DNA of 64,000 bases from an uncultured Desulfosoma sp. (GTDB lineage Bacteria; Desulfobacterota; Syntrophobacteria; Syntrophobacterales; DSM-9756), in assembly GCA_937960435.1 (NCBI GenBank), contig CALGPN010000010.1, positions 1-64,000 of the forward strand. Reading direction: 5' to 3'. Position 1 is the stretch's first letter, and each line of letters begins with the position of its first letter. Below the pieces are notes generated by a model. The model worked only from the letters and a program-made list of their open reading frames with translations, was not told the origin of the DNA and did not search any database. Below are positions 19,551 to 64,000 of this stretch, in pieces. The translations under genes were made by a program, and so were the position numbers.

Positions 19551-19800
19551 ATCGGTGGCCCTTGGTCGTGCTAGGCGGGGAGCTAGCGGTTCCCTGTACC
19601 CGAAATCCGCTCAGCGGGGCTGAATTCCCTTTCGAGGGATCGGTTGGTGCGTCCCGAACGGCACTGCACCGTCGGTCGGACACCTCGCAACAGACGGATG
19701 TGAACCCCGTCAGGTCCGGAAGGAAGCAGCGGTAAGCATTGCGGTCTGTGTCGAGGTCTATTCTGACTGGATGCTGCAGGAAAGTCGGGCCGGCCGTGAT
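19551..19800 (+). ncRNA. ffs: signal recognition particle RNA, long form
   Basis: The Ffh-binding helix 8 is unmistakable at about 19705-19735: CGTCAGGTCCGGAAGGAAGC, then AGCGGTAAG. Upstream, from about 19565, the GTGCTAGGCGGGGAGCTAGC block and the following CCCTGTACCCGAAATCC resemble the extra 5' domain of long bacterial SRP RNAs rather than the 114-nt Escherichia coli form. The ends are estimated: TGGCCC at 19556-19561 can pair with GGGCCG at 19787-19792. It functions in co-translational membrane targeting together with Ffh and FtsY. Confidence 0.88.
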
Positions 19801-19867
19801 CGACTCGACAAAGGGTGCACGACCAAGGGTCTTTTCGTCCCGTCTGCCCGTTTGCGATCTTCCCCCC

Positions 19868-55061: not shown

Positions 55062-55088
55062 TTGACACAGCCCGTCTCGGGAAATTAT
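55062..55088 (+). promoter_or_regulatory. putative promoter of the tryptophan operon
   Basis: TTGACA (55062-55067) is followed by AATTAT (55083-55088, four of six) after 15 bp, a suboptimal spacing. It lies 50 bp ahead of the leader peptide. No Trp-repressor operator palindrome was identified. Confidence 0.5.
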
Positions 55089-55138
55089 GGAGGAGTCGTT
55101 CCGTTATGAGAAACTCTGGGAATTGAAAGGCGCAGACC

Positions 55139-55234
55139 GTGGGTTTCGATCGGCAGGCACGCAATGTTGGTTTCTGGTGGTGCTGGTGGTGGTGCGTGAT
55201 GCACGGGTGCGCCGACGGGAGTGTGTCGCATTAG
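55139..55234 (+). CDS. trpL: tryptophan operon leader peptide
   Basis: A 31-residue peptide starting with GTG at 55139, preceded by GAAAGG eight bases upstream. Its central segment is FWWCWWWC: five Trp codons among six consecutive W/C positions (55175-55192), followed by VMHGC and ending at TAG 55232-55234. It is followed by a rho-independent terminator and the aroF-trp genes, so it is an attenuation leader. When charged tRNA-Trp is scarce the ribosome stalls on the Trp codons and the terminator is prevented. The frame was identified by reading all three frames; it does not depend on similarity. Confidence 0.88.
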   Translation: MGFDRQARNVGFWWCWWWCVMHGCADGSVSH

Positions 55235-55260
55235 ACCACCGGCATAAACGATGCCATCAA

Positions 55261-55296
55261 GACCGTGGGCCACCCGGCCCACGGTCTTTTTGTTTT
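55261..55296 (+). terminator. trp attenuator terminator
   Basis: A perfect 11-bp stem (GACCGTGGGCC / GGCCCACGGTC) with a 4-nt loop is followed by TTTTTGTTTT. It lies 26 nt after the leader stop. The segment GACCACCGG just before it (from 55234) can pair either back with the Trp-codon run (GGTGGT) or forward with CCGTGG of the terminator stem, which gives the alternative structures expected of an attenuator. Confidence 0.9.
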
Positions 55297-55381
55297 GGGG
55301 ATAAGGCCGTGGGATTTTCTCCCGCGGCCTTTTTTCATTGAACGAACCGCCGCTTACCGAAAAGAGAGGAGGACAGCCGCC

Positions 55382-56434
55382 ATGCTCGTCGTCATGCGCA
55401 AAGGCGCCACACAGGATCAAATCGAGCATGTGGTGCGCGCCATCGAAGCCCGAGGCTACAGTGCCCGGCCCATTCCAGGCGGGGAACGCACGGCCATCGG
55501 CATCCTGCACAATCGTGGACCTGTAGATCCCAATTGGGTCCAAGGTCTTCCCGGGGTGAAGGAAGCCATTCCCGTGACTCGGCCGTATAAGCTGGTGAGC
55601 CGCGAATTTCACCCACGGGATACCGTCGTCGCCGTGGACGATGTGCGCATCGGCAACGGCTCGCTTGTCGTCATCGCCGGACCATGCGCTGTGGAAAGCG
55701 AGGAACAGGCCCTGACCATCGCCCGCCATGTGAAGCGCGCCGGAGCCCACCTGTTTCGAGGCGGCGCCTTCAAGCCCCGCACCTCCCCTTACGCCTTTCA
55801 AGGCCTTGGAGAAGAAGCGCTCAAGATTCTCGATCGAGTGCGCCGGGAAACGGGCCTTCCCATCGTGACGGAGGCTTTGGACCACACGGTCTACGACCTG
55901 GTGGAAGAAGTCGCGGACATCGTCCAGATCGGCGCCCGCAACATGCAAAATTTCAGCCTGCTGCGCCGAGCCGGCCATTCGTCGAAACCCGTACTCCTGA
56001 AGCGAGGCATGGCAGCCACTTTGGAAGAATGGCTCATGGCCGCCGAATACATCCTGGAAGGCGGCAACCCCAACGTGATCCTGTGCGAACGGGGCATCCG
56101 CACCTTTACGGACCACAGTCGAAACACATTGGACCTTTCCGCCGTGCCCGTGGTCCGAAAAGAGAGCCATCTGCCCATCATCGTGGACCCCAGCCACGCC
56201 TGCGGCCGCCGGGATCAGGTGATCCCCTTGAGTCGCGCCGCGGTGGCCGTCGGCGCCAACGGGATCATGGTCGAAGTGCATCATCGGCCGGAAGAAGCCC
56301 TGAGTGACGGCGCCCAGTCCCTCTACCCCGACCAGTTCCGGAGGCTGTGCGAGGAAATCGAACCGTTGGCGCAACTCTACGCCCGCGCACCCGAACCGGA
56401 ACACGGTCCCGCCGAGGCCCAGGCGGCAGGCTGA
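55382..56434 (+). CDS. aroF: 3-deoxy-7-phosphoheptulonate synthase (DAHP synthase, type I-beta)
   Basis: First enzyme of the shikimate pathway, 350 residues, condensing phosphoenolpyruvate and erythrose 4-phosphate. An N-terminal ferredoxin-like regulatory domain (MLVVMRKGATQDQIEHVVRA) is followed by the barrel: VVIAGPCAVESEEQ, FRGGAFKPRTSPYAFQGLG, DIVQIGARNMQNF, PVLLKRGMAAT and PIIVDPSHACGRRD. AGAGGAGG precedes the ATG. It is the first gene of the trp operon, so it should be controlled by tryptophan through the attenuator. Confidence 0.95.
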   Translation: MLVVMRKGATQDQIEHVVRAIEARGYSARPIPGGERTAIGILHNRGPVDPNWVQGLPGVKEAIPVTRPYKLVSREFHPRDTVVAVDDVRIGNGSLVVIAGPCAVESEEQALTIARHVKRAGAHLFRGGAFKPRTSPYAFQGLGEEALKILDRVRRETGLPIVTEALDHTVYDLVEEVADIVQIGARNMQNFSLLRRAGHSSKPVLLKRGMAATLEEWLMAAEYILEGGNPNVILCERGIRTFTDHSRNTLDLSAVPVVRKESHLPIIVDPSHACGRRDQVIPLSRAAVAVGANGIMVEVHHRPEEALSDGAQSLYPDQFRRLCEEIEPLAQLYARAPEPEHGPAEAQAAG

Positions 56435-56478: not shown

Positions 56479-57987
56479 ATGAGACTCCGGTTATTTCCTG
56501 CACGAGACACCTTCGCCGAGCTGCTGACCCGGGGGAACCTGGTTCCGGTGTGCTGTGACATTCTGGCCGACACGGAAACCCCTGTGTCGGCGCTGGCCAA
56601 GATTCGCCGTCCCGGCCGTCCCGTCTTTCTCTTGGAAAGCGTGGAAGGCGGTGAGCGCTGGGGCCGCTACAGCTTTCTCGGCGCCTCGGCATCCCGCCAC
56701 GTGCGCCTCTTTCGAGACCATGTGGAACTGGACGAAAACGGCTCTCGGCGCCGGGTGGAACACGGCGGCGATCCCCTCCACGTCCTTCGGGCGCTCATGG
56801 CCCCCTATCGGCCTGTGGCGGTCCCCGGTCTTCCCCGTTTCTGGGGCGGCCTTGTGGGGTGGTTCGCCTATGAGACGGTATCTTTCTTTGAAAGAATTCC
56901 CCATGCCTTGCCGCCCGAAGAGCCTTTGGCCCACTTCGTCGTAACGGACGAACTCCTCATCTTCGACAACGTGCGGCACACACTCACCTTGCTCGTCCCC
57001 GTGTTCCGGCCGGACGGCTCCCAGGAAGACCCGGGGCGGCTCTATGACGAGGCCGTCTCCCGGTTGAAAACCCTGGCCGATTCTCTGGCTCGGCCTCTTC
57101 CCGTGCCGGCCGTCCCTCTGGCCATGCCCGCCGCCCCCGAAACCCCCGCGTTCCGTTCGCGCGTGTCCCGAGACGATTTCTTCCGCATGGTCCGAACCAT
57201 CAAGGACCATATCACGGCGGGAGACATCATCCAGGCCGTCATTTCCCAGCCGTTTGAGCTCCGGCCGTCGCCCGACCCCTGGTTCCTCTACCGCGCCCAA
57301 CGTTACGTGAACCCTTCACCTTACATGTTCTTCATGGAACTGGACGACCGGGTCCTTGTGGGATCGTCCCCGGAAACCATGGTCCGGCTGGAAAACGGCG
57401 TGGCGAGCCTCCGGCCCATCGCCGGCACCCGCCCCCGGGGTGCCACGGAACAGGAAGATCGGCGCCTCGCCGACGAGCTCCTCAAAGACCCCAAGGAACG
57501 CGCCGAACACCTCATGCTCGTGGATCTCGGCCGAAACGATCTGGGCCGGGTCGCCGAGACGGGCACCGTCCAGGTCACCGACCTCATGGTCGTGGAACGC
57601 TATTCCCACGTCATGCATCTTGTCTCCAACATCACGTGCGATCTTCGCCGGGATGCCGACGCCTGGGATCTCCTGCGGGCGACCTTTCCGGCGGGAACGC
57701 TCACGGGAGCCCCCAAAATTCGGGCCATGGAAATCATCGCCGCTTTGGAACCCACGCCGCGGGGCCCGTACGGAGGCGCCGTGGGCTACATCGCTTTTAC
57801 GGGAAACATGGATCTTGCCATCACCATCCGCACGGCATGCCTGCACCGCGGCATCATGACCGTCCAGACCGGGGCGGGCATCGTGGCGGATTCCGTTCCC
57901 GAACGGGAATACGAGGAGACGGAAAACAAAGCGCGGGCCATGCTCAAGGCCGTGGCTGTGCTGCGCAACGCGGAGGTCCTGCCATGA
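56479..57987 (+). CDS. trpE: anthranilate synthase component I
   Basis: Chorismate-utilising subunit of 502 residues. The N-terminal regulatory region has FLLESVEGGERWGRYSFLG (the LLES feedback motif for tryptophan). The catalytic half has QAVISQPFEL, NPSPYMFFMEL, IAGTRPRGAT, ERAEHLMLVDLGRNDLGRV, and FPAGTLTGAPKIRAMEII. GAGAGGG precedes the ATG at 56479. It overlaps trpG by four bases. Confidence 0.96.
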   Translation: MRLRLFPARDTFAELLTRGNLVPVCCDILADTETPVSALAKIRRPGRPVFLLESVEGGERWGRYSFLGASASRHVRLFRDHVELDENGSRRRVEHGGDPLHVLRALMAPYRPVAVPGLPRFWGGLVGWFAYETVSFFERIPHALPPEEPLAHFVVTDELLIFDNVRHTLTLLVPVFRPDGSQEDPGRLYDEAVSRLKTLADSLARPLPVPAVPLAMPAAPETPAFRSRVSRDDFFRMVRTIKDHITAGDIIQAVISQPFELRPSPDPWFLYRAQRYVNPSPYMFFMELDDRVLVGSSPETMVRLENGVASLRPIAGTRPRGATEQEDRRLADELLKDPKERAEHLMLVDLGRNDLGRVAETGTVQVTDLMVVERYSHVMHLVSNITCDLRRDADAWDLLRATFPAGTLTGAPKIRAMEIIAALEPTPRGPYGGAVGYIAFTGNMDLAITIRTACLHRGIMTVQTGAGIVADSVPEREYEETENKARAMLKAVAVLRNAEVLP

Positions 57988-58574
57988 TCGTGATGATCGA
58001 CAATTACGACTCCTTTACCTACAACCTGGTCCAATACCTTCAGGTGCTCGGGGCCGACGTGCGGGTTGTCCGAAACGATGCGGCCTCGGTGGAGGACATC
58101 CTTTCCTGGAACCCCCGCGGGATCGTCATTTCCCCGGGGCCGGGAAAACCGGAAGACGCCGGTGTCTCCGTCCCGCTCATCCGCGCGGCTGCACCGTCCA
58201 TCCCCATCCTGGGCGTGTGCCTGGGCCATCAGGCTTTGGCCGTCGCCTTCGGCGGCCGCGTGGGACCCGCCCGCTCCCTCATGCACGGCAAAACTTCCAT
58301 GGTCCGGCCCGACGGCCGAGGGATTTACCGGGGCATTTCCGCCCCGTTTCAGGCCATGCGTTACCATTCTCTGGCCGTGTTCCGGGACGGTCTTCCTGAA
58401 TGCTTGGAAGTCACCGCGGAAGCCGACGACGGCGAAATCATGGGAATTCGCCACAAGACATATCCCTGCGAAGGCATCCAGTTTCATCCCGAATCCATCA
58501 TGACACCCGTGGGAAAACGCCTCCTGCGCAATTTCCTCAACGGGCACCACGGAGGAGACAGCCGTGTTTGTTGA
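57984..58574 (+). CDS. trpG: anthranilate synthase component II (glutamine amidotransferase)
   Basis: Class I glutamine amidotransferase of 196 residues. IDNYDSFTYNLVQYL is at the N-terminus, ISPGPGKPEDAG follows, the nucleophile cysteine is in GVCLGHQALA, and the catalytic His/Glu pair is in IQFHPESIMTPVG. It supplies ammonia to TrpE, and may also serve folate synthesis. It overlaps both trpE and trpD. Confidence 0.96.
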   Translation: MIVMIDNYDSFTYNLVQYLQVLGADVRVVRNDAASVEDILSWNPRGIVISPGPGKPEDAGVSVPLIRAAAPSIPILGVCLGHQALAVAFGGRVGPARSLMHGKTSMVRPDGRGIYRGISAPFQAMRYHSLAVFRDGLPECLEVTAEADDGEIMGIRHKTYPCEGIQFHPESIMTPVGKRLLRNFLNGHHGGDSRVC

Positions 58575-59586
58575 AAAGCTTCGCCGCATCACCCAAAGGA
58601 TAGATCTTTCGGAGGAAGAGATGAGCGCGGTCATGGACGCGCTTATGTCCGGGGAACTGACCGACGCGCAAATGGGGGCGCTCATGGCCGCCTTGGCCAC
58701 CAAAGGCGAGACCTTTGCCGAACTGGCCGGGGCCGCTCGCACCATGCGCCGAAAAGCCCATCGGCTGCACGTGACGGCTTCCACGGTGGTGGACACCTGC
58801 GGCACCGGGGGCGACGGCGCCCACACGTTTAACATTTCCACCACGGCGGCCTTTGTCGTCGCGGGTTGCGACGTGACGGTGGCCAAGCACGGCAATCGGT
58901 CCGTATCCAGCCGGTGTGGCAGCGCCGACGTTCTGGAGGCTTTAGGCGTGCGGCTGGATGTGGACCAGGAAGTTGTGGAAGAGGCCCTCGCCGAAATCGG
59001 CATCGGCTTTCTCTTTGCGCCCCTCTACCACGGCGCCATGCGTCACGCGGCCAAAGCCCGTCGAGAAGTGGGCATCCGCTCCCTTTTTAACATGCTTGGC
59101 CCGCTCACCAACCCCGCCGGGGCCAACTGCCAGGTGCTCGGCGTGTTTGCGCCGGAGCTGACAGAGATGTTCGCCAAGGCGCTGCAGCTTCTCGGCGCGC
59201 GCCGCGCCTTCGTCGTCCACGGCCACGACGGGCTGGACGAAATCACGGTGTGCGCCCCGACCCGCGTGACCGAACTCCACGATGGCCTCATCCGCACCTA
59301 CGACCTGGACCCGGAACGAATCCTGGGCCGAACGGCTCCGAGCGACGCGTTGCGCGGCGGATCGCCGGAAGACAACGCCAGGATCCTTCGTTCCATTTTG
59401 GAAGGCGCGCCGGGACCGTGCCGGGATGTGGTGGTCCTGAACGCCGCGGCGGCTCTCGTGGCTGCCGGATCGGCCGAAGACCTGCGGGAAGGGGTGAACC
59501 TCGCCGAAAAGAGTCTGGATTCGGGGGCCGCTCGATCCAAGCTGGACGCCTTGGTGCGCTTCACCCAAGAGCGTGCCCCGGTATGA
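58564..59586 (+). CDS. trpD: anthranilate phosphoribosyltransferase
   Basis: Enzyme of 340 residues that transfers phosphoribose to anthranilate. The PRPP site is VDTCGTGGDGAHTFNIST and the KHGNRSVSSRCGSADVLEALG motif follows. The GTG start at 58564 is preceded by GGAGGAG and overlaps the end of trpG by 11 bases. It is a separate protein, not fused to TrpG. Confidence 0.96.
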   Translation: MFVEKLRRITQRIDLSEEEMSAVMDALMSGELTDAQMGALMAALATKGETFAELAGAARTMRRKAHRLHVTASTVVDTCGTGGDGAHTFNISTTAAFVVAGCDVTVAKHGNRSVSSRCGSADVLEALGVRLDVDQEVVEEALAEIGIGFLFAPLYHGAMRHAAKARREVGIRSLFNMLGPLTNPAGANCQVLGVFAPELTEMFAKALQLLGARRAFVVHGHDGLDEITVCAPTRVTELHDGLIRTYDLDPERILGRTAPSDALRGGSPEDNARILRSILEGAPGPCRDVVVLNAAAALVAAGSAEDLREGVNLAEKSLDSGAARSKLDALVRFTQERAPV

Positions 59587-59614: not shown

Positions 59615-60514
59615 ATGACCGATTTTCTTACAAAGATCCTTGAGGCGAAACGCGCCGAGACGGCCGCTCGAGCGGCCCGACGGTCCCTTTCGGACGTGCG
59701 CCGGGAGGCCGAAGCCATGCCGCCCCCACGTTCTTTTGCCGATGCTCTGGTTTTTCGGCCGTCCCCGGCAGGATTTTCGGGAGCCCCACCCGGCTCATCG
59801 GCAAACGGGAACTCCCCGTTTCCCGGGAAAATCCCGGGCGGCGCGCCCGCATCCACCGGTCCACCGATACGCATCATTGCGGAAATCAAAAGGGCGTCCC
59901 CGTCCAAGGGGCCGCTACGGCCCGACCTGGACCCGGCGGATCTCGCTCGAGCCTACGTTCGGGGCGGCGCGGCGGCTCTTTCCGTTCTCACCGACGGCCC
60001 TTTTTTCGGCGGTTCCCTAGACGACCTCATCGCCGCCCGAAACGCCGTGCCCGTGCCGGTGCTCCGAAAAGACTTTCTCGTGAGCGATTACCAGATCTAC
60101 GAAGCGCGGGCCGCCGGAGCCGACGCCGTGCTCCTGATCGTCCGGGCCGTGTCCCCCGCCTTCCTCAGGGACGCTCTAACCCTGTGCGAGGCTCTGCGTC
60201 TCGCCGCTTTGGTGGAAGTCCACGACGAAGCGGAACTGGAAACCGCCCTGGACTGTGGCGCCCAAATCATGGGGGTGAACAACCGCAACCTCAAAACTTT
60301 TGAAACGTCCCTGGAGACATCTCTTCGGCTTCGATCGCTCATTCCCGAAGACCGTCTCATGGTTGCCGAAAGCGGCCTTCGGGACCGATCCGACATCCAA
60401 CGGCTCGTCTCCGTCGGGATTGGAAATTTCCTTATCGGGGAGTCCCTGGTGCGCGCCGACGATCCCGAAGCCGCCGTGCGGGCTCTGGTGGCGACGCCGA
60501 TACCCGAAGCCTGA
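59615..60514 (+). CDS. trpC: indole-3-glycerol phosphate synthase
   Basis: Barrel enzyme of 299 residues. The normal family features are present: [73 protein letters not shown] and [12 protein letters not shown]. Residues 48-84 are an extra segment rich in Pro, Gly and Ser, placed between the N-terminal helix region and the first barrel strand. The family is usually about 260-270 residues. The DNA of the insert has two adjacent hairpins, so it may come from an in-frame palindromic insertion. Confidence 0.95.
59756..59866 (+). repeat. in-frame palindromic insertion within trpC
   Basis: This 111-bp stretch encodes the extra 37 residues of TrpC. It contains AAACGGG-AACTC-CCCGTTT (59803-59821) directly followed by CCCGGG-AAAAT-CCCGGG (59822-59838). 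The reading frame is kept open. Confidence 0.55.
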
Positions 60515-60628: not shown

Positions 60629-61278
60629 ATGGACATCAAAATCTGCGGGATCACCACTCCGGAAGACGCTCTGGCTGCGGCCGCTCTGGACATCCAGGCC
60701 GTGGGGCTCGTCTTCTACCCCAAGAGCCCGCGCTTTGTGGACGAGGCCGCGGCCCGACGCATCACGGCCGTGCTTCCCGTCGGGATCGCCGCCGTCGGAG
60801 TCTTCGTGAACGAACCCGTCGACGCCGTCCTCGCCACGGTTCGATCCGTGGGCCTTCATGCCGTGCAGCTCCACGGGACGGAATCGCCCGAGGACGTCTC
60901 ACGGCTCGTGGACGCGGGTCTTCGGGTCGTCAAAGCCCTTTTCGTCAATCGCCCGCCCGGCTTGGACACTTACAGGACTTACGCGCCGTCGGCCTTCCTT
61001 GTGGAATGCGCCGGGACCCAGCGTCCCGGGGGAAACGCCCTCGCCTGGAACTGGGCCCAAGTCCGCGGGGCAATCCCCGAAGTCCCCGTGATCCTGGCCG
61101 GGGGCCTCACACCGGAAAACGTCCGGGACGCCATCCTCGGTGCGAAACCTTCCGGGGTGGATGTGAGTTCCGGAGTGGAAAGCCGCCCGGGCCGAAAGGA
61201 CCCGAACAAAATGCACCGATTCGTTTTGGCCGTGCGCCGCATTGGGCCCCGGCCGCCACACGGAGGAGGAATTTTTGC

Positions 61279-61282
<4 letters not shown>
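60629..61282 (+). CDS. trpF: phosphoribosylanthranilate isomerase
   Basis: Barrel isomerase of 217 residues. [15 protein letters not shown] at the N-terminus supplies the catalytic cysteine (KICGIT), and [34 protein letters not shown] and [16 protein letters not shown] are diagnostic. It lies 114 bp after trpC with no terminator seen between. It overlaps trpB by four bases (ATGA). Confidence 0.96.
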
Positions 61283-62511
<1,229 letters not shown>

Positions 62512-62680: not shown

Positions 62681-63484
62681 ATGATGACCCGACTGACACG
62701 ACTCTTTGCTGCTCTCAAAGAAAAACGCGAGGGCGCCCTCGTCGCTTTCGTCACGGCGGGCGACCCCGACCCCGAAACCTCCCTCGCCGTCCTCCGCGCC
62801 ATGATCGAGGCCGGTGTGGACATCATCGAACTGGGGGTTCCCTTTTCCGACCCCACGGCCGACGGCCCCGTGATCCAGCGCTCTTCGGCCCGGGCCCTGG
62901 CCCAGGGCATGACCTTGGAAAAAACTCTCGCCCTATGCCGATCCATCCGCCGGGAGAGCGACGTTCCCGTGGTCATCTTCAGCTACTATAACCCCATCCT
63001 GGCCATGGGCGGTCGGCGGTTCTACGAAGAAAGCGTCCGATCCGGGGCGGACGCCGTCCTCGTCGTGGACCTTCCGCCGGAGGAATCCCGGGAGCTCCTG
63101 GACCAATGGAGCGGCAACCGCCTGGACTTCATCCGACTCGTCGCCCCAACGACGCCCACGGAACGCATGGCGGCCATCGCCCGGGACGCCTCCGGCTTCC
63201 TCTATCTCGTTTCCATGACCGGGGTCACGGGAAGCGCCGGTCTGGACCTTGAAGAAGTTGCAGCCACGGCGGCGCGGCTCAAGCACGTGGCGGCCCTTCC
63301 TGTGTGCGTCGGGTTCGGCATTTCCCAACCCGAGCATGTCTCGGCTGTGTGCCGCACGGCGGACGGCGCCGTGGTAGGAAGCGCCTTCGAACGGCTCATC
63401 GAAGAGCATCTTACGGCGGGCGACCTTCCCGAACGTATCGCCCGCTACGCCAGCGCCCTCAAAGCCGCCACCCGGTTGCTCTGA
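62681..63484 (+). CDS. trpA: tryptophan synthase alpha chain
   Basis: Alpha subunit of 267 residues, releasing indole from indole-glycerol phosphate. LVAFVTAGDPDPETSLAVL is followed by IIELGVPFSDPTADGPVIQ with the catalytic glutamate and aspartate, then FSYYNPILAMG, VDLPPEES and MTGVTGS; VGFGIS is the phosphate site. Two adjacent ATGs (62681 and 62684) follow AAAGGATCCC. The 169 bp between trpB and trpA contain only a GC-rich segment with weak hairpins; the operon probably continues across it. Confidence 0.96.
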   Translation: MMTRLTRLFAALKEKREGALVAFVTAGDPDPETSLAVLRAMIEAGVDIIELGVPFSDPTADGPVIQRSSARALAQGMTLEKTLALCRSIRRESDVPVVIFSYYNPILAMGGRRFYEESVRSGADAVLVVDLPPEESRELLDQWSGNRLDFIRLVAPTTPTERMAAIARDASGFLYLVSMTGVTGSAGLDLEEVAATAARLKHVAALPVCVGFGISQPEHVSAVCRTADGAVVGSAFERLIEEHLTAGDLPERIARYASALKAATRLL

Positions 63485-63672: not shown

Positions 63673-64000
63673 ATGGACGTGAAAGAAGCCATCCGAGCGG
63701 CCATTCAAGAACTGATCATCCCGGAATTGGGCGCGATCAAAAGCGAGTTGGGGCAGCTTCGCGTTCGACAAGACGCCGTTGAAAAGCGTCTGGACGACGT
63801 CAACAGTAGGCTCGAGCAAATGAACGCCCACCTCATTGACCAGAGCCGACGCATCGACGCCGTCCGACAAGAACTTATCCAGCGGATTGATGAAACTAAC
63901 AAGCGGATCGATGAAACCAACAACCGCATTGATGCCGTTCGTCAGGAGCTTACCCAACGGATTGATGAAGCCATCAAGCGCATCGACGAAACCAACAACC
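63673..64000 (+). CDS. coiled-coil protein, truncated by window end
   Basis: The reading frame from ATG 63673 stays open to the last base, giving 109 residues so far. AAAGG precedes the ATG. After MDVKEAIRAAIQELIIPELG the sequence becomes a regular coiled coil with heptads such as QRIDETNK, RIDETNN, RIDAVRQ and RIDEAIK. The DNA shows matching 21-bp near-repeats. No signal peptide is seen. Short proteins of this type often occur as small soluble coiled-coil proteins of unknown role or as parts of nucleotidyltransferase- or nuclease-associated domains; the function cannot be told from the fragment. Confidence 0.8.
   Translation, partial: MDVKEAIRAAIQELIIPELGAIKSELGQLRVRQDAVEKRLDDVNSRLEQMNAHLIDQSRRIDAVRQELIQRIDETNKRIDETNNRIDAVRQELTQRIDEAIKRIDETNN

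Follow-up and report, generated by a model that had tools for sequence, protein, structure and literature searches.

A putative tryptophan attenuator with two linked terminators upstream of aroF and the trp operon in an uncultured Desulfosoma species

Introduction

What controls transcription of the aroF-trpEGDCFBA operon in an uncultured Desulfosoma sp., where a short ORF crowded with Trp codons and a terminator hairpin precede the first gene? The operon lies in the window analyzed here, a stretch of 64,000 nucleotides that is part of a contig (C10) of a 3.0-Mb genome; all of the window features described below are on the plus strand. Ribosome-mediated attenuation has long been known. In the E. 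coli trpL leader, Trp codons lie in a short ORF, an intrinsic terminator precedes the operon, and the position of the ribosome decides between antiterminator and terminator. In the literature that we searched, amino-acid attenuators came mainly from Proteobacteria and Actinobacteria with a few from Firmicutes, and a gammaproteobacterial origin has been suggested for them (PMC3766115).

A first-pass annotation of this DNA proposed Trp attenuation of aroF together with the whole trp operon, and the conserved Trp leader, terminator, antiterminator and promoter described below supported this proposal. Judged from the sequence and from modelling, the locus is almost certainly a ribosome-mediated attenuator that would sense charged tRNA-Trp and control aroF-trpEGDCFBA. 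The full explanation that we prefer, in which one stalled ribosome would open two terminators in relay, is quite probable.

Results and discussion

The leader ORF, its promoter and the operon

The leader peptide ORF runs from a GTG at position 55139 to a TAG ending at 55234 (stop codon, 55232-55234) and encodes the 31-codon peptide MGFDRQARNVGFWWCWWWCVMHGCADGSVSH, in which the FWWCWWWC core brings five Trp codons within six positions. An SD-like GAAAGG is present at 55125-55130, and AAAGG was also found 5' of GTG-GG in two congeners. The GTG start, the 31 codons, the five Trp codons in six positions and the 11-bp terminator with its T tract were all present as first annotated. The predicted promoter (55062-55091) consists of a TTGACA -35 box (55062-55067), which is located 77 bases 5' of the GTG, and a TTATGG/TATGGA -10-like element after a spacer of 17-18 bases; TTGACA or a near variant was found 86-122 nt 5' of the Trp cluster in most of the 26 readable relatives. 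Because this promoter lies upstream of the leader ORF, the leader is expected to be inside the transcript.

The SD sequence AGGAGG (55367-55372) precedes the first operon gene, aroF (55382-56434), which encodes a DAHP synthase (NCBIfam PRK08673 / TIGR01361). This gene is followed by trpE (56482-57987; NCBIfam trpE-type matches), trpG (57984-58574; TIGR00566), trpD (58564-59586; Pfam PF00591/PF02885), trpC (59615-60514; Pfam PF00218), trpF (60629-61282; Pfam PF00697), trpB (61288-62511; Pfam PF00291) and trpA (62681-63484; Pfam PF00290).

A Trp cluster was found at the same position 5' of the orthologous aroF in all 28 relatives with enough upstream DNA, a recurrence that is far beyond chance, and the leader ORF was kept in all readable aroF-linked relatives. 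The cluster reads FWWCWWWC in most of the family and FWFWW, WRWWW, WCWWW or WCWWC elsewhere, with a reduced WGW in one genome, and the N-terminal half of the peptide is unconserved across the aroF-linked relatives. The first-pass annotation had suggested a search for W-rich leaders 5' of aroF or trpE in relatives, which was positive at 28/28 aroF loci and in approximately 21 of 30 trpE genomes. It had also named two results that would speak against an attenuator, namely a lack of W-rich leaders in close relatives and a transcription start downstream of the leader; neither was found, as W-rich leaders occur in the relatives and the predicted promoter is located 5' of the leader.

The T1 terminator and a complementary strand inside the ORF

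The T1 terminator hairpin of 11 bp (55261-55286) is followed by the T tract TTTTT (55287-55291). Its 5' arm and loop form strand S4 (55262-55276), and its 3' arm forms strand S5 (55278-55288). The putative 5' strand of the antiterminator, S2 (55204-55218; GGGUGCGCCGACGGG), pairs with T1 and is located inside the ORF 3' of the Trp codons, at a distance of 14 nt from the start of the last one, as derived from energies and modelling. We found S2 to be complementary to the T1 5' arm and loop in 27/27 leaders, with S2:S4 duplex energies of -19 to -27 kcal/mol. The T1 arms are near-invariant and the loops variable, and S2 tracks the loops: AGGUGUG is matched with CACACCU in L017, GGAGUG with CACUCC in L008 and GGCGC with GCGCC in L025. 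Swapping the T1 loops between leaders with the arm held fixed weakened the S2:S4 duplex from -24.0 kcal/mol for own pairs to -21.8 for permuted pairs (sd 0.58; 0/10000). When S2 was compared with the T1 loops alone and the register was left unfixed, the swap test showed no excess (1277/5000), since stretches of GG can pair with a wide range of loops. Among paralogous and distant leaders, the S2:T1 energies were -23.6 for own and -19.1 for permuted pairs (sd 0.39; 0/5000), a separation of approximately 11 standard deviations, although such permutation figures overstate strength and independence because the leaders are related. The paralogous leaders have different sequences in S2 and in the T1 loop, and yet the two still match, as seen in the second family of the order (GGGCUCCCAC with GUGGGAGCCC) and before iorA (GGUGAAGCC with GGCUUCACC).

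In 27/27 leaders, S2 starts inside the ORF; counted from the first base of the last Trp codon, the median distance to this start is 16 nt, and in 25/27 leaders S2 does not extend beyond the stop codon. Given the ribosome footprint, the start of S2 roughly coincides with the leading edge of a ribosome stalled at the last Trp codon. Folding in the stalled and free states, a check that had been suggested at the outset, was carried out on modelled transcripts extending to the T1 loop: S2:S4 was predicted to be dominant in 27/27 leaders with a stalled ribosome, was absent by construction with the ribosome on the stop codon, and without translation the outcome differed among leaders. At equilibrium, the full transcript prefers T1 and T2, the second terminator described below; antitermination must therefore depend on kinetics, in line with the general view of attenuators. 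The locus has a short ORF with many codons for the end product 5' of a biosynthetic operon and an intrinsic terminator between this ORF and the first gene, and sequence and modelling predict an antiterminator that would exclude the terminator and become available upon a stall.

We also observed that the start region of the leader (55135-55143) reads GACCGTGGG, which is identical to the core of the T1 5' arm and would make the region over the GTG a further possible partner of the T1 3' arm. This CCGTGGG was kept in two congeners (L002 and L003), not in Desulfacinum.

A second terminator and a possible relay

The first-pass annotation did not include a second terminator hairpin with a T tract, T2 (55303-55331), which begins 16 bases 3' of T1 in the window and was present in 27/27 leaders. 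The 5' arm of T2, strand S6 (55303-55313), is complementary to the 3' arm of T1, and therefore opening T1 should also open T2. S5:S6 pairing was found in 96.9% of cells, compared with 34-58% for slid versions and 93.3% for the own arms of T2, and the energy of S5 was -17.4 kcal/mol with its own S6 and -7.0 kcal/mol with 146 unrelated terminator arms from the same loci. For the window RNA free of the stalled ribosome, the best fold was the antiterminator up to the T1 loop and T1 once S5 was complete; for the free RNA up to S6, the best fold was exactly the antiterminator together with S5:S6. After S6 has been made, the relay state is favoured at equilibrium in only 15/27 leaders.

From these parts, their conservation and their pairing statistics, we infer a response to Trp, an order of events and a relay step. 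When Trp is plentiful, the ribosome would reach the stop codon and cover S2, T1 would fold and transcription would end, and polymerases leaking past T1 would be caught by T2. When Trp is scarce, the ribosome would stall at the Trp codons and leave S2, which starts just beyond its leading edge, free to pair with the T1 5' arm and loop as the antiterminator. This antiterminator would in turn free S5, which could then pair with S6 and open T2. In an untranslated leader, a hairpin of the Trp codons and S3, P1, would compete with the antiterminator. The relay taken alone, in which one stall would open both terminators, has a somewhat better than even standing on the pairing statistics and folds.

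Weighing of the alternatives

The main doubt about the relay is that S6 resembles S4: if T2 began as a copy of T1, this alone would give the S4/S6 similarity, and part of the S5:S6 signal could stem from such an origin. Attenuation might then act through T1 alone; T2 would be a copy of T1 or would serve independently for back-up or insulation, and the S5:S6 pairing would be a by-product of shared arms. We consider this reading unlikely but the most serious alternative to weigh. T1 suffices in the leaders before iorA, and several TrpE-linked leaders outside the order have a single terminator, as this reading would expect. An always-active T2, however, would make antitermination at T1 futile. 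Furthermore, S6 still pairs with S5 where the T2 arms mismatch, S5:S6 being perfect over ten bases in 19/27 leaders and the T2 stem (S6:S7) in 12/27, and the compensatory changes within T2 preserve pairing with S5, in many cases by G-U. S6 also fits S5 better than S4 does in L112, L119, L123 and L150, and own S5:S6 pairs beat swapped ones.

The remaining alternatives concern the Trp-codon segment and the way in which it is read. With the alignment alone as input, RNAalifold paired the Trp-codon stretch GCUGGUGG (strand S1, 55180-55190) with CCAUCAGC just 3' of the stop codon (strand S3, 55235-55245; CCACCGGC in the window). This P1 pairing was found in 91.8% of cells, compared with 18-60% for slid versions; for L020 and L023, no P1 could be drawn. 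P1 is like the E. coli 1:2 hairpin, the terminator is like 3:4, and the window allows a 6-bp CCAC(C)GG:CCGUGG match, as a classical attenuator with S3 pairing to the T1 5' arm in a 2:3 antiterminator would predict. The S3 region, however, pairs with S4 at a mean of only -5.8 kcal/mol, in comparison with -24.0 kcal/mol for S2; S3 was rejected as the antiterminator strand on this energy, and the classical design has very little probability. In the E. coli four-segment scheme (1:2, 2:3, 3:4), the same strand pairs with the Trp codons and forms the antiterminator, and S2 is a different strand. Still less credible is an untranslated W-rich ORF beside a plain terminator, a protein-bound (TRAP-like) leader or a T-box, which general possibility alone favours and against which the Trp frame is kept while the surrounding sequence changes. 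The TRAP gene (mtrB; PF02081) was not found in the genome, with the Bacillus subtilis control genome positive, and TRAP control was dropped for this Desulfobacterota genome, which has no TRAP gene. A covariance-model search for T-boxes (RF00230) gave no match in the window or in 20 genomes of the phylum. The window had no match to Rfam Trp_leader (RF00513) even at E up to 10, and none of the Rfam families matched the leader; matches to ar14/ar35 were far below threshold and were set aside. The first-pass annotation had also raised cysteine supply, acting through the two UGC codons besides Trp, as an influence on stalling. Six genomes of the family share an identical WWCWWWC despite divergence in the N-terminal half of the peptide, as such sensing might require. 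Cys is, however, not conserved: the residue between the Trp codons is Cys in 13 of the 27 leaders and Arg (8), Phe (5) or Tyr (1) in the other 14, and a further genus of the family lacks the second Cys (L097, WCWWWS). Pairing with S3 involves the last two bases of the codon between the Trp codons, and in L026 and L030 these bases and their partners have changed in concert; a UGG at this position would break the P1 helix. Both the spread of residues and the pairing of the codon are as a pairing constraint predicts, not as cysteine sensing predicts, so co-control by cysteine finds no support and is highly improbable. Base pairing between the Trp-codon segment and the post-stop segment dictates which codon stands between the Trp codons.

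Comparison with known attenuators

The proposed Trp attenuator shares with E. coli trpL (RF00513) the short Trp-codon ORF, the terminator before the operon and the switch by ribosome position. In contrast to trpL, the antiterminator strand is located in the ORF and not after the stop codon, a second complementary terminator is present, aroF is the first gene and there is no Rfam match. The trp attenuators of Corynebacterium and Streptomyces, as far as the available part of the report describes them, likewise combine a Trp-codon leader peptide (double or triple UGG) and a GC-rich terminator with a conserved complementary triple, whose core is gGCC-rGCy-GGCC there and CCGUGGG here; a tandem terminator or relay is not described in that part (PMC1262725). 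The rimP leader of Gammaproteobacteria resembles the present leaders in its two tandem terminators, with a potential antiterminator for one of them, but gene and signal are different, and leader-peptide sensing and strand relay are not described in the portion of that source at hand (PMC2965389). The leader of Salmonella mgtCBR likewise has more than a single attenuation step together with short ORFs, but it carries two ORFs and tandem attenuators, whereas a single stall is proposed here to open two terminators (PMC3641672).

Our literature search, with subscription papers outside its scope, found no description of these leaders or of any terminator relay. Novelty as a trp attenuator in Deltaproteobacteria is not certain, and ribosome-mediated attenuation is a known principle; what appears to be new here is the architecture with a putative in-ORF antiterminator and a second linked terminator. 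If true, the relay would be an uncomplicated means of combining tightness with easy opening in a transcription switch: two terminators would multiply tightness when off, and one switch would open both.

Distribution across the order and phylum

A covariance model of the leader, R1, was built on the 27 leaders. R1 matched 39/39 genomes of the order, with weak or partial matches in G020 and G026, where a contig end truncates the locus, and 93/395 genomes sampled across the phylum at an E-value of 1e-6 or better. R1 contains T2 and its hits therefore favour tandem terminators, so trpE homologues were taken by protein from 30 genomes of other families as a model-independent check. Some of the trpE loci with a Trp-cluster ORF had no R1 match. 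Two terminators were found at 14 of these trpE loci and one at others. S5:S6 forms in 14/14 of the tandem loci, and own pairs beat permuted pairs (23/5000). The exact T1 hairpin sequence occurred at 24 places in named genomes, 22 of which belong to Desulfacinum, Syntrophobacteraceae or other deltaproteobacterial records; the two places outside the order (Streptomyces and a 'Clostridiaceae' MAG) were regarded as chance. This distribution places the organism in Desulfobacterota, within the Desulfacinum family but in a different genus.

By its sequence features, the attenuator design recurs across the phylum before trpE, trpD, trpB2, iorA, paaK, a transporter and DAHP synthases. This places a different architecture, missed by current RNA models, in many families of another phylum. 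It is about as likely as not that the relay attenuator is a distinct phylum-wide design of Desulfobacterota, in which two terminators in series would be opened by strand exchange and in which genes for making, salvaging and taking up aromatic amino acids would form a regulon governed by Trp, Tyr, Phe or mixed codons.

Related leaders and the aromatic regulon

The second DAHP synthase in the same genome has its own leader, MNSKGTVRRFYFYYGWYYGPEGVGRPPR, with Phe/Tyr/Trp codons (an R1 match). The trp attenuator would therefore gate one isoenzyme only. The first-pass claim that attenuation gates the shikimate pathway holds in that aroF is the first gene of the attenuated operon and falls short in that this second enzyme lies behind a separate leader; aroF appears to be gated by Trp and its sister isoenzyme by a mixed aromatic leader. 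The FYFYYGWYYG leader of the second gene (L085:296-455; C45:4295-4454) has the same T1/T2 design and was kept in five more genomes (L128-L132).

R1 also matched Tyr-rich leaders before the gene for an ABC transporter periplasmic binding protein, in this genome YSYYYGYGY (L086:275-383; C34:21474-21582). Here, genes like paaK (phenylacetate-CoA-ligase-like) and iorA are located approximately 5-6 kb downstream, an arrangement that may point to an operon salvaging a Tyr precursor, for example 4-hydroxyphenylacetate. An aromatic leader was looked for upstream of iorA (C28) and paaK (C6) in this genome, and none was found. The stem CCGTGGG...CCCACGG occurs at only four places in the genome, three of which are attenuators, compared with 25 for the reversed control pattern; the fourth (C18) has neither an aromatic leader nor a T tract and was rejected.

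In other genomes, R1 revealed related leaders before three further kinds of gene. Trp-rich leaders with T1 and without T2 precede iorA, the gene for the indolepyruvate ferredoxin oxidoreductase alpha subunit (L087, L090, L092, L093, L095, L102, L136 and L143), suggesting that the enzyme is used for Trp supply. Phe-rich leaders (e.g. FGFFHFSGFSFRGGFFF) with the T1 core CCATGGG and the T2 core CCGTGG precede phenylacetate-CoA ligase (L135, L137, L139 and L140), and Trp-rich leaders precede a TrpB-like (trpB2) gene (L088, L089, L091, L094, L114 and L116). In a further family of the phylum, a leader with LLFFWFYF stands before a DAHP synthase of the AroG type (L121). Such leaders suggest an aromatic specificity for transporters, arylacetate-CoA ligases and 2-oxoacid oxidoreductases, for which the protein sequence alone is insufficient.

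Elsewhere in the window, an SRP RNA of the bacterial large type (RF01854, 150 bits) is present at 19566-19822 in this desulfobacterotum. Additionally, an ORF at 63673-63999 that runs off the window end contains repeated RIDETNKRIDETNNRIDAVRQEL-like units and is probably a coiled coil.
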